Source of the DNA: an uncultured Mucispirillum sp.
GTDB taxonomy: Bacteria > Chrysiogenota > Deferribacteres > Deferribacterales > Mucispirillaceae
Direction: 5' to 3'
Length of the DNA stretch: 64,000 nucleotides
Assembly: GCA_944324465.1 (NCBI GenBank)
Contig: CALUWI010000001.1
Span: 97,023 to 161,022 of the forward strand
Under the pieces are notes generated by a model. It was not told the DNA's origin, did not search any database, and was given only the letters and a program-made list of their open reading frames with translations. The position numbers and the translations under genes were made by a program. Of the stretch, positions 26,869 to 53,264 are shown piece by piece (position 1 is the first letter of the stretch; each line of letters opens with the position of its first letter).

Positions 26869-26972
26869 GACTCGTCAGGGGCTATGCAATCGCTGTGCGG
26901 TAAACCCCGCCAGGTTCGGAAGAAAGCAACGGTAGCTGTTATAGTGGTGTGCCGTAGTTACTCTGACGGGTC
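26869..26972 (+). ncRNA. ffs: Small bacterial signal recognition particle RNA (4.5S)
   Basis: The apical domain is unmistakable: GCCAGGTTCGGAAGAAAGCAACGG corresponds to the Ffh-binding CAGG/GGAAGcAGC internal loops and a GGAA tetraloop. The ends GACTCGTCAG (26869-26878) and CTGACGGGTC (26963-26972) pair over 10 bp with one G-U. Length is about 104 nt, standard for the short form. An extra hairpin, CACCACTT/AAGTGGTG at 26841-26862, lies between the promoter and this stem and may be a removed 5' leader. Confidence 0.95.
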
Positions 26973-49057: not shown

Positions 49058-51208
49058 ATGCGGATACTTTTTATGCTTGCAGGTATTCCTGGCTCTGGCA
49101 AATCATATAGTATAAAACAATTACAGTTAGAACATTTAACTCTTTCTACAGATACTCTGCGTGTTATGAATGGCACATTGCTTCCTTATATAGACAAAAG
49201 CAGTAATATTGACAGCTTTTATGATAACATTATTTTTGAGCAGCTTATGCAGATGCTTGAAAACAGAATGATATACGGCCAGACTACTATTTTAGATACT
49301 ACAGGGCTTTATGATATAAATGATATATTAGATATGGCAAAGGCATACAGATACAGAGTAGTTTATGTTGTATATGATAAATACAGTGTTGATGAATGTT
49401 ATAACCATATACTTGCAAGGAAATATAATAACAGCATACCTTATGAAATATTAATAAAATACCAGACCCGCCTTACTGACTTTAAGAAAAAACATAAAGA
49501 TTACGAAACAGATTTATCTGCTGCTGTTGCAAAATGGGACACTTTTTATCTGCAGCAGGATACTTTTAATCAGTATGAAGATATAATTGTTATACCAGAT
49601 TTACATGGAAGCTATACAGTATTTTCTAAATTTTTAGAAGATAATGATAATTTGCAGAATACTAAAAAAGCATACATATTTTTAGGGGACTATATTGACA
49701 GAGGCGAAAATAATGTGGCTATGATAGAATCATTAATATGGCTTGCTTCTTTAGAAAATGTATATCTTATAATGGGTAACCACGATTTAAGGCTTTTTAA
49801 CTGGGCTTTTGATAAATCTTACAGTGGTAACAATTTTAAGAAAACTATTGAAGAAATAGAAAAAAAGAAAAGTGAAAAAGAAATTGAAAATATAAAAAAA
49901 TCTCTTAGAAAGATATCTAATAAAATTAAGGACTATATTTATTTTGAATTTAACGGGCAGAAATATTTTTTAAACCATGCAGGTATTGAATATATGGATA
50001 ATCATTTTCCTGCATGCTTTTTAAACGGCAAAAAAACTTACGGTTATAAAGAAGATGATGATACTTATGAAAGCTATATACAGGTTGCAGATAAATGGCA
50101 GATAAATCACCCTGATATAATACAGATTTTTGGGCATAGAAACTGTTTTCCTGACAGGTTAGAAAATGGCATAAAAATTAATAATAATGCTTACTGCCTT
50201 GAATGTAATATAGAATATGGCGACCCTCTTGTTACTTTTTCTTTAAAAGATAAAAATGTAAGGCTTTATGATAACCCTGCAAAGAAAAACAAAAAAATTG
50301 AAAATAATTTAAAAGATATAATACAGGAAAAAGAGTTTACTGAACATAATATAAAATCTATAAACTTTACTAAAAATGTTTTCCATAAAAGGATATGGAA
50401 TGATGTTACAATTAAAGCCCGCGGCTTATATAAATATATAGACAGTAATGAAATCGCAGGCAGAGGATATATAAAGTTTTTTAATATTAATGAAAAAGAA
50501 GATACTAAAATAGAAAACTGGGCAAAAGATATAGAATATCCTGTATATGTTTATAAAAAATATAATGGGTTTTTAGGCATCGTTTTTTATAATAAAACTA
50601 CAAAAGATTTAGAGTATGCTACAAAATCAATAGCTTACGGGAAAAAGTACAACAGATATATAGAAGAATTATTAAATAAAGAGCAGAAAGAATATATAAA
50701 AGAAATAAGCAAAAAGCATAATGTAACATTTCTTTTTGAATGTATCCATTTAAAAGATAATGACCACCCTGTAAAAGCTGAAAAATCAGAAATAATTCTG
50801 CTTGATATTTTAGCAAATACAGAAGACTTAGTTTATAAAAATGAGCTTGCAGGCAATCTTTTTATTAGAAAAGAGCTGCTTGATACAATCTATAATGAAG
50901 CTGACTTATTAAAAACTGCTGATTATTATAACAACAGTCTTGATGTAGATATTGAAGGTGTAGTTCTGCAGGATAAAAATAATAAAATGCTTAAAATAAA
51001 AACAATTTTTTATAAGGCAAAAAAATTAATAAGAGCTGTCAGCTATACTAATAATATTAAAGTTATAGAAACTCCGTATTATCCAGTAATAGCTAAAAGC
51101 CTTGCATTTTTAGCAGTAAAGGATTTAATAAGGAATAATAAACTTGATAAATGGAATGATATTACATTAAATGATTTAAAAGAATATTATAAAACATTAA
51201 ATTTATAA
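49058..51208 (+). CDS. Single-chain RNA-repair enzyme: polynucleotide kinase, metallophosphatase and Rnl1-type ligase
   Basis: A 716 aa protein with three domains. Kinase (about 1-165): P-loop GIPGSGKS (9-16). Phosphatase (about 175-400): IPDLHG (179-184), GDYIDRG (210-216), GNHD (240-243), His307 and GH360, all calcineurin-type metal ligands. Ligase (about 440-690): RGYIKFFNINE upstream, KYNG with the likely adenylated Lys501, FLFECIH, EGVVLQD (633-639) and LKIKT (645-649). This order matches bacterial Pnkp, which heals and seals broken RNA ends, but the ligase part looks more like T4 Rnl1 and no Hen1 methyltransferase gene is adjacent. It probably repairs nuclease-cut tRNA. Single gene with an AGAGG ribosome-binding site. 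Confidence 0.88.
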   Translation: MRILFMLAGIPGSGKSYSIKQLQLEHLTLSTDTLRVMNGTLLPYIDKSSNIDSFYDNIIFEQLMQMLENRMIYGQTTILDTTGLYDINDILDMAKAYRYRVVYVVYDKYSVDECYNHILARKYNNSIPYEILIKYQTRLTDFKKKHKDYETDLSAAVAKWDTFYLQQDTFNQYEDIIVIPDLHGSYTVFSKFLEDNDNLQNTKKAYIFLGDYIDRGENNVAMIESLIWLASLENVYLIMGNHDLRLFNWAFDKSYSGNNFKKTIEEIEKKKSEKEIENIKKSLRKISNKIKDYIYFEFNGQKYFLNHAGIEYMDNHFPACFLNGKKTYGYKEDDDTYESYIQVADKWQINHPDIIQIFGHRNCFPDRLENGIKINNNAYCLECNIEYGDPLVTFSLKDKNVRLYDNPAKKNKKIENNLKDIIQEKEFTEHNIKSINFTKNVFHKRIWNDVTIKARGLYKYIDSNEIAGRGYIKFFNINEKEDTKIENWAKDIEYPVYVYKKYNGFLGIVFYNKTTKDLEYATKSIAYGKKYNRYIEELLNKEQKEYIKEISKKHNVTFLFECIHLKDNDHPVKAEKSEIILLDILANTEDLVYKNELAGNLFIRKELLDTIYNEADLLKTADYYNNSLDVDIEGVVLQDKNNKMLKIKTIFYKAKKLIRAVSYTNNIKVIETPYYPVIAKSLAFLAVKDLIRNNKLDKWNDITLNDLKEYYKTLNL

Positions 51209-51290
51209 TAGGAAATTTTTACCAGCATATAAAAGGAAAATATTTACACTTAAACCTGTATATACCCACAATTAAGTAGTTATATAGTTA

Positions 51291-51417
51291 TATCTTTATA
51301 TAAAAAAAGAGCAGACAACAATATACTGGCAAAAAATAGTATTTTTTGCCAAAATAATGGGAAACTGTTCGCCCGTACATAACCCGCTCACAGTTAACTT
51401 ATTATATATTTATATAA
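51291..51417. repeat. 127-bp tandem repeat, unit A
   Basis: Starts TATCTTTATATAAAAAAAGAGC. It contains TGGCAAAAAATA/TATTTTTTGCCA (12-bp arms, 1-nt loop) enclosed by a GAGC-GAC/GT-GCTC-like outer stem and, on the minus strand, a T7 run after it. Confidence 0.95.
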
Positions 51418-51544
51418 TATCTTTATATAAAAAAAGAGCGGACAACAATATACTGGCAAAAAATAGTATTTTTTGCCAAAATAATAGGAAACTGTTCGCT
51501 CGTACATGCCGCGCTCACAGTTAACTTATTATATATTTATATAA
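51418..51544. repeat. 127-bp tandem repeat, unit B
   Basis: Nearly identical to unit A. A third, partial unit begins at 51545 and merges into the terminator of the predicted small RNA. Confidence 0.95.
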
Positions 51545-51555
51545 TATCTTTATAT

Positions 51556-51628
51556 AAAAAAAGAGCGGACATCCTGTCCGCTTGACACGAGAGCTCCATC
51601 TCCCAGGCGAGATTGTTTCTCTACCCAC
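51556..51628 (-). ncRNA. Predicted sigma-54-dependent small RNA (about 73 nt)
   Basis: Non-coding RNA inferred from signals. On the minus strand a consensus sigma-54 promoter (51638-51653) places +1 near 51628. About 45 nt later comes an intrinsic terminator: 8-bp stem AGCGGACA/TGTCCGCT with a GGA loop and then CTTTTTTT (51564-51582 plus the T-run). Between them are two short GAGA/TCTC hairpins and the most GC-rich, least decayed sequence of the surrounding 1.2 kb. No start codon with a usable ribosome-binding site is present. No known RNA family is recognised. It converges on the RNA-repair gene, about 350 nt from its stop. Confidence 0.65.
51564..51582 (-). terminator. Intrinsic terminator of the predicted small RNA
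   Basis: AGCGGACA-GGA-TGTCCGCT followed by CTTTTTTTATA on the minus strand. Confidence 0.85.
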
Positions 51629-51637
51629 TTTTCTTAT

Positions 51638-51653
51638 AGCAATACCTATGCCA
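51638..51653 (-). promoter_or_regulatory. Sigma-54 promoter upstream of the predicted small RNA
   Basis: The minus strand reads TGGCATAGGTATTGCT, an exact TGGCA-N6-TTGC[AT] match, nearly the same as the flgB operon promoter (TGGCATTTGTATTGCT). No enhancer site was identified. Confidence 0.85.
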
Positions 51654-52397: not shown

Positions 52398-53264
52398 TTA
52401 CTCAAAAAGATTAAGCCGTATAAGCATTATCCCTGCCACAATAACAATACTGCCTATAATTCTTTGTTTGCCGTATGATTCTTTTAGGAAGAAAATACCC
52501 ATTAATACACCAAATAATGAGCTTAACTGCCTTAGGGCTGAAGCATAAGATATCTGCATATCTATAAGACCTAATCTGTATGTAACAGTGGAAGCAGCCA
52601 TTGCAAAGCCGCCAAGGATAACTAATTTCCACTGGATAGGAACATGGACTTTTCTATGAAGTGTTACTGATTTTCTATGGCTTATTATTGTAAACATAAC
52701 AGAGTAAAATGACATAAAATCAGCCATAAGCATAATATATAAATGAGTATTAACTGAAGCTACTCCCATTTTATCTGCCATTGCACCAAAGGAATATAAA
52801 AAGGCTGCAAGTATTGCTATTAATATACCATATAAGCCTGATTTATTACCCTTGCCTTTTGTAATATTCATTATATAGCAGCCAGAAAGCACTAATACAA
52901 TACCAAGGATACCTAATGGAGTAACTCTTTCATCTAATATAAAATATGCCCAAATCATAATAAAAAATGGTGATGATGTAGTGATAGGATAAACCATAGA
53001 TACATCGGCATATTTATAACTTACTGCTGTAAAATGCTGATAAAGAGCAAAAAAGAATGATGAAAGCAGGGCATATATAAATGTTGGCTTATGAAAATAA
53101 AAAGCATCTGGGAAGAAAAATACTGTGTAACTTGTAATGAATACTGCTGTAGCTACTTGAATATGGACATTATAAGCCACTTTATCATCGGAGGTTTTAA
53201 CTAACAAATTCCATACTGCATGAAATACTGCGCTTACAACTATTAATGCAAATGCATAAGACAT
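52398..53264 (-). CDS. EamA/DMT-superfamily transporter
   Basis: A 288 aa inner-membrane protein with ten TM segments in two EamA repeats (SAVFHAVWNLLVK at the start of the first; AILAAFLYSFGAMADK at the start of the second). The family exports or imports metabolites; no substrate can be given. The last codons (LIRLNLFE-stop) coincide with part of a repeat found twice just downstream, so the 3' end may have been reshaped by repeat insertion. A hairpin lies about 30 nt upstream of the start. Confidence 0.88.
   Translation of the reverse strand: MSYAFALIVVSAVFHAVWNLLVKTSDDKVAYNVHIQVATAVFITSYTVFFFPDAFYFHKPTFIYALLSSFFFALYQHFTAVSYKYADVSMVYPITTSSPFFIMIWAYFILDERVTPLGILGIVLVLSGCYIMNITKGKGNKSGLYGILIAILAAFLYSFGAMADKMGVASVNTHLYIMLMADFMSFYSVMFTIISHRKSVTLHRKVHVPIQWKLVILGGFAMAASTVTYRLGLIDMQISYASALRQLSSLFGVLMGIFFLKESYGKQRIIGSIVIVAGIMLIRLNLFE

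Follow-up and report, generated by a model that had tools for sequence, protein, structure and literature searches.

A new small-RNA family of the Deferribacterales under a sigma-54-type promoter, with two GGA-bearing hairpins predicted to bind CsrA

The window, that is, the whole stretch of 64,000 nucleotides analysed here, comes from a gut bacterium of the genus Mucispirillum and carries on its minus strand the gene of a small RNA that belongs to a new RNA family of the Deferribacterales under a sigma-54-type promoter. We are highly confident that the RNA gene and its structure are real, and the family which it defines has strong covariation support. With regard to function, the explanation that we favour, with moderate confidence, is that of a flagellum-timed, trans-acting CsrA decoy beside FliW.

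The RNA gene and its neighbours

The features of the locus are compiled in Table 1. The promoter TGGCATAGGTATTGCT is followed, after approximately 10 nt, by 72 nt that end in AGCGGACAGGATGTCCGCT-CTTTTTTT, and a terminator scan identified AGCGGACAGGATGTCCGCT plus CTTTTTTT as an intrinsic terminator (51582-51556, minus strand). No usable ORF was found in the RNA: one of the three frames is interrupted and none of the three has a conserved start. Promoter match, terminator scan and frame check were thus in line with the preliminary description of this locus, which had reported a sigma-54 promoter, an insert of about 73 nt and a terminator, without an ORF. The predicted fold of the RNA (-25 kcal/mol) had a z score of -1.86 against shuffles, which is modest when taken alone. 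Since this single-sequence evidence was not strong, the comparison across genomes was decisive.

Table 1. Positions of the RNA gene, its elements and the upstream gene in the window.
Feature	Position	Strand	Basis or remark
sigma-54 -24/-12 promoter TGGCATAGGTATTGCT	51638..51653	-	pattern match; conservation across copies
predicted sRNA, about 72 nt	51556..51628	-	5' end placed by distance from -12 element
hairpin 1 (GGGU-A-GAGA AACAA UCUC-GCCU)	51605..51626	-	bulged A, AACAA loop, best conserved part
hairpin 2, loop AUGGAG at 51599-51594	51589..51604	-	ANGGAN, predicted CsrA site 1
hairpin 3 = terminator stem	51564..51582	-	fold, terminator scan
apical GGA of hairpin 3, predicted CsrA site 2	51574-51572	-	23 nt from site 1
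terminator T-run	51556..51562	-	
EamA-family transporter gene	52398..53264	-	upstream, same strand as RNA

Two 127-nt tandem copies (window 51290-51543), 95% identical to each other, start directly after the terminator of the RNA and open with a duplicate of the 3' arm of that terminator. Their appearance is that of local duplications, and they contain a palindrome (TTGGCAAAAAATA-TATTTTTTGCCA); similar copies are located at the same place in a related species (G002, L008). Elsewhere in the window, the bacterial small SRP RNA was found at 26873-26971.

The next gene (window 49058-51208) encodes a polynucleotide kinase-phosphatase-RNA ligase fusion (AAA_33, Metallophos, RNA_lig_T4_1), which is apparently broken in G005 (L072), where separate pieces match only. 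Since the next gene encodes an RNA-repair enzyme and rtcBA RNA repair is under sigma-54 control in E. coli, control by an RNA-damage sensor had initially been proposed as one possibility for the RNA, which would then regulate RNA damage or respond to it together with this enzyme. However, the ligase gene adjoins the RNA, in convergent orientation, in a subset of Mucispirillum species, and the RNA has no such neighbour in any further genus; the link to RNA repair was consequently rejected, and we give a role in RNA damage hardly any credence.

Conservation and covariation of the RNA

Searches with covariance model R1, built from 13 sequences (alignment A2), and with a second model, R2, detected one copy of the RNA per genome in 36 of the 51 genomes of the phylum, distributed over seven families that all belong to the order Deferribacterales. 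A further weak match, in G031 (E = 0.04), was discarded, as its sequence on reading was unlike the RNA. At the DNA level, the whole unit from promoter to terminator was recovered within the genus, from two more genera of its family and, with 73% identity, from another family. Promoter, insert and terminator are conserved together in relatives, with compensatory changes; co-conservation of promoter and insert was among the checks put forward in the preliminary description. A pattern scan of 84,980 species returned 16 true matches, all in Deferribacterales and several of them in organisms named Mucispirillum. Pattern matches in three Acinetobacter and one Nitrosomonas were attributed to chance, as nothing was alike outside the pattern.

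None of the Rfam covariance models CsrB, RsmX, RsmY, RsmZ and TwoAYGGAY matched above cut-off in the window or in 15 relatives, and at the locus they were missing even among the Rfam matches up to E = 10. The sub-cut-off Rfam matches found at the locus were regarded as chance. In G040, a sub-threshold PrrB_RsmZ match (L073, 1948-2058; 22.5 bits, E 0.098) lies about 350 nt downstream of the RNA.

Covariation supports all three hairpins. In an alignment of 35 sequences fitted to the model, both sides change in 13 of the 19 base pairs, 95.3% of cells pair, none of 500 shuffles reached the covariation score and slid structures collapsed. Alignment A2, made with MAFFT from 13 sequences and not fitted to the model in this way, also showed changes on both sides (6/19 pairs; 0/500 shuffles). 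Column pair 43-53 alone occurs as U-A, A-U, C-G, G-U and U-G. Hairpin 1 combines both-side changes in six of its eight pairs (35 sequences) with a bulged A that never varies and an AACAA loop that hardly does. It is devoid of GGA in most Mucispirillum, while a third GGA, largely paired, is present in hairpin 1 of most lineages outside this genus.

These changes also bear on whether the palindrome after the promoter acts as DNA, namely as a downstream enhancer site for a sigma-54 activator, instead of as RNA structure. Some flagellar activators do bind downstream of the transcription start. Nevertheless, the stem changes are compensatory, with G-U pairs included, and the family motif GTGGAACAACCAC was found at no other place in the nine relatives searched, so that the probability of a DNA site appears negligible.

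Conservation and frequency of the promoter

The pattern TGGCA-N6-TTGCW occurs four times in the window against 0.66 expected, a number reached by none of 100 shuffles, and in the whole genome 49 sites compare with none for the pattern read backwards. Two of the sites in the window precede flgB (47055 and 47108), as had been noted before for a promoter similar to that of the RNA. Across 35 copies of the RNA promoter, T, G, G and A are invariant, C is present in 34, and the TG and final T of the -12 element are invariant, with a variable spacer; on the tree, no changes fall at TGGCA, TG or T, compared to 4-9 at most spacer positions. The rpoN gene was present in 50 of 51 genomes. We thus infer that the RNA is probably transcribed by sigma-54 RNA polymerase, with flagellar timing.

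The element varies among lineages. Family f6 has A or T in place of the -12 C. In f7, f2 and f3, A or G takes the place of the first T of TTGC, so that the -12 element reads (A/G)TGCT, and the G037 copy has no sigma-54 element. Further, in L083, L084 and L091 (f7, f3) the -12 element continues into TATAAT (TGCTATAAT); to judge from these sequences, several f7, f2 and f3 copies may have a sigma-70 promoter of the extended -10 type that overlaps the sigma-54 site or has taken its place.

In most genomes, the EamA gene is the conserved neighbour just upstream of the RNA, and it is not thought to be part of the function of the RNA. Its location on the same strand, with a stop codon that falls within the promoter element in several genera, raises the alternative that the RNA belongs to the EamA transporter mRNA, as its 3' untranslated region with the terminator. 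This is very unlikely in view of the 750-1300 nt gap between both in Mucispirillum and of the conservation of TGGCA-N6-NTGNT while the spacer changes freely.

GGA-bearing loops as predicted CsrA sites

RsmE/CsrA recognises ANGGAN hexaloops with high affinity (PMC7652899), and the ANGGAN and GGA loops of the RNA are the binding signature of CsrA, which makes them predicted sites. To count changes in the loops, a tree of the EamA protein encoded next to the RNA was used. In hairpin 2, where the counts leave out genus g2 and G028, the positions A, N, G, G, A and N changed 0, 4, 0, 0, 0 and 4 times, respectively. The loop of hairpin 3 showed 5 changes at the first N, 1 at each G, none at A and 7 at the last N, and GGA is present in 29 of 35 copies. 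Its usual form, (A/U)GGAN on a strong stem, is one base short of ANGGAN, and the full hexaloop occurs in G042, G035 and G037 (AUGGAA, AUGGAU, ACGGAG); SELEX ligands of CsrA had mostly short stems (PMC7652899). GGA within a terminator loop is otherwise rare, with one other distinct hairpin in the DNA scanned. Across copies, the GGAs of loops 2 and 3 have a spacing of 18-23 nt, and one CsrA dimer bridges sites 10-63 nt apart (PMC7652899). Apart from the largely paired GGA in hairpin 1 of most lineages outside Mucispirillum, a search for more than two CsrA sites per molecule yielded the two loop GGAs only. In families f7, f2 and f3, the fold prediction places the middle GGA partly in base pairs.

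The preliminary description had called the RNA unlike any recognised one, which does not hold for loops that carry CsrA-type GGA motifs. Its reading as a sigma-54 small RNA stands; it had overlooked both these loops and their structural twin in flagellin leaders, described below.

Not all lineages keep the loops, which speaks against the decoy explanation. The hairpin 3 GGA is lost in genus g8, and in genus g2 (G010, G012) and in G028 both GGA loops are lost, with promoter and hairpin 1 retained. CsrA binding can hence not be the sole role of the RNA, and hairpin 1 has a second role besides the predicted CsrA binding.

This retention of hairpin 1 also fits two other explanations. According to the first, the RNA is a base-pairing sRNA of the flagellar cascade, like CJnc230/FlmE, in which hairpin 1 or the single-stranded linker does the main work and CsrA is a helper or regulator at most. 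Conservation is highest in hairpin 1 and, within family f1, in the linker CGUGUCAAGC, and C. jejuni provides a precedent for a flagellar sRNA that depends on RpoN (PMC11187230). Still, the conservation of the linker is absent outside f1, hairpin 1 offers only a 5-nt loop on a stem that changes by compensation, unlike a seed, and the conserved ANGGAN would be left unaccounted for; we consider this explanation unlikely. According to the second, which is more doubtful again, hairpin 1 binds another RNA-binding protein, so that the RNA would join two regulators as a dual decoy or scaffold with a dispensable CsrA arm. The invariant bulged A and the near-invariant AACAA loop over compensated stems speak for such a protein, but hairpin 1 could also be a mere stability element.

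csrA, fliW and the flagellar context

In the same genome, csrA follows fliW in a sigma-54 flagellar cluster, behind flgL and flgK; a TGGCA-N6-TTGCT element precedes flgL and another precedes flgI. The encoded CsrA has an RKE motif with the arginine corresponding to R44, and a C-terminal extension. In g2, CsrA is intact although the GGA loops of the RNA are lost.

In genera from across the order, flagellin leaders contain a hairpin whose loop reads AAGGAA, AAGGAU, AUGGAA or the like (GACGCAAGGAAGCGTC, UGCGCAAGGAUGCGCA, GGGCAUGGAAGCCC), followed by an ANGGAGG Shine-Dalgarno sequence, a layout known from CsrA-controlled flagellin mRNAs (PMC4894983). These leader hairpins are similar to hairpin 3 of the RNA. 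Even in g2 and G028, there are still flagellin leaders that have GGA sites. In several genera (e.g. L147, L150, L151, L160), a conserved segment (CCTCTATTGAAA.AATCAAGGAGGAU) is located after the GGA hairpin of the leader and ahead of the start codon; some genomes have an AATAG.. arm upstream that matches it.

A recognisable csrA was found in 37 genomes of the order, 31 of which also have the RNA; the six csrA-positive genomes that show no RNA are mostly drafts. Conversely, csrA was detected in 31 of the 36 RNA-positive genomes. The five others are G021 and G028, which contain runs of N, and three genomes that are 73-78% complete. Runs of N of about 7.5 kb cover the place of csrA, just after fliW in G028:C1 (L176), and the whole of it in G021:C3 (L175), and the apparent csrA loss in these two genomes was dismissed as an artefact.

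In G016, G023, G018 and G025, csrA, fliW and the RNA were all undetected. G016 and G023 are also without flhA, while G018 keeps flhA and flagellin, and the one flagellin leader examined there has no GGA hairpin. This co-loss, which concerns two lineages (G016/G023 and G018/G025) and is not statistical, is suggestive of a link between csrA, fliW and the RNA. The absence of the RNA from the two genomes without flhA, fliW and csrA, and the conservation of the promoter together with the insert, lend support to the flagellar connection put forward earlier for the RNA.

Proposed role of the RNA

In the decoy explanation that we favour, sigma-54 RNA polymerase would transcribe the sRNA together with the middle (hook-stage) flagellar genes. 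The sRNA would then bind one CsrA dimer through its two GGA-bearing hairpins, about 20 nt apart, and the occupation of CsrA would relieve the repression of flagellin and other CsrA targets, alongside the protein antagonist FliW. Both CsrA binding and decoy action are deduced from sequence comparison, and a decoy with only two sites would require abundant RNA. We hold more tentatively, as a possibility, the fuller proposal of a flagellin-leader mimic that, under sigma-54 and flagellar timing, antagonises CsrA in FliW bacteria and recruits a second partner through hairpin 1.

If true, CsrA would have an RNA antagonist outside Gammaproteobacteria that is subject to flagellar sigma-54 control. Deferribacteres belong to the groups for which the use of FliW has been presumed (PMC4682653), and a 2020 review considered the joint action of FliW and an sRNA on CsrA in any bacterium as still to be determined (PMC7652899); with this Deferribacterales RNA, the question becomes directly testable.

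Comparison with known systems

CsrB/CsrC and RsmX/Y/Z of Gammaproteobacteria are, like the Deferribacterales RNA, non-coding, with GGA hairpin loops and an intrinsic terminator at the end, and they occupy CsrA as the RNA described here would do. They carry many GGA hairpins in contrast with two, are controlled by BarA-UvrY/GacSA and not by a sigma-54 promoter, and have no sequence homology to it as judged by Rfam. Further, the Deferribacterales RNA is found in FliW bacteria, and FliW is anti-correlated with BarA-UvrY (PMC4682653). McaS and GadY of E. coli share with it a small size and few GGA sites (at least two), and are proposed CsrA antagonists (PMC7652899). They base-pair in addition to binding CsrA, while the Deferribacterales RNA has no homology to them and no known base-pairing target.

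Outside Gammaproteobacteria, TwoAYGGAY (RF01731) and the reverse complement of Bacillaceae-1 (RF01690) are candidate CsrA-binding RNAs with two GGA hairpins (PMC4333381). The Deferribacterales RNA did not match these families at gathering score, and architecture and hosts differ; a Bacillaceae-1 match on the opposite strand of the G040 copy (E = 3.8) was at chance level. To our knowledge, no sigma-54 promoter has been reported for TwoAYGGAY or Bacillaceae-1.

With CJnc230 (FlmE) of Campylobacter jejuni, a small RNA of the flagellar cascade that depends on RpoN (PMC11187230), the Deferribacterales RNA would share this control. Unlike the Deferribacterales RNA, CJnc230 mainly arises by processing of the flgE mRNA; its base-pairing partners are flgM and Cj1387c, and it is not described as a CsrA decoy in that study (PMC11187230).

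Finally, the hag and flaA leaders of B. subtilis and C. jejuni present two GGA sites about 20 nt apart per CsrA dimer, as is predicted for the Deferribacterales RNA; in the C. jejuni flaA leader, which is itself able to titrate CsrA, these are two GGA hexaloops 21 nt apart (PMC4894983). Such leaders precede a coding sequence, in contrast with the free-standing, non-coding Deferribacterales RNA.
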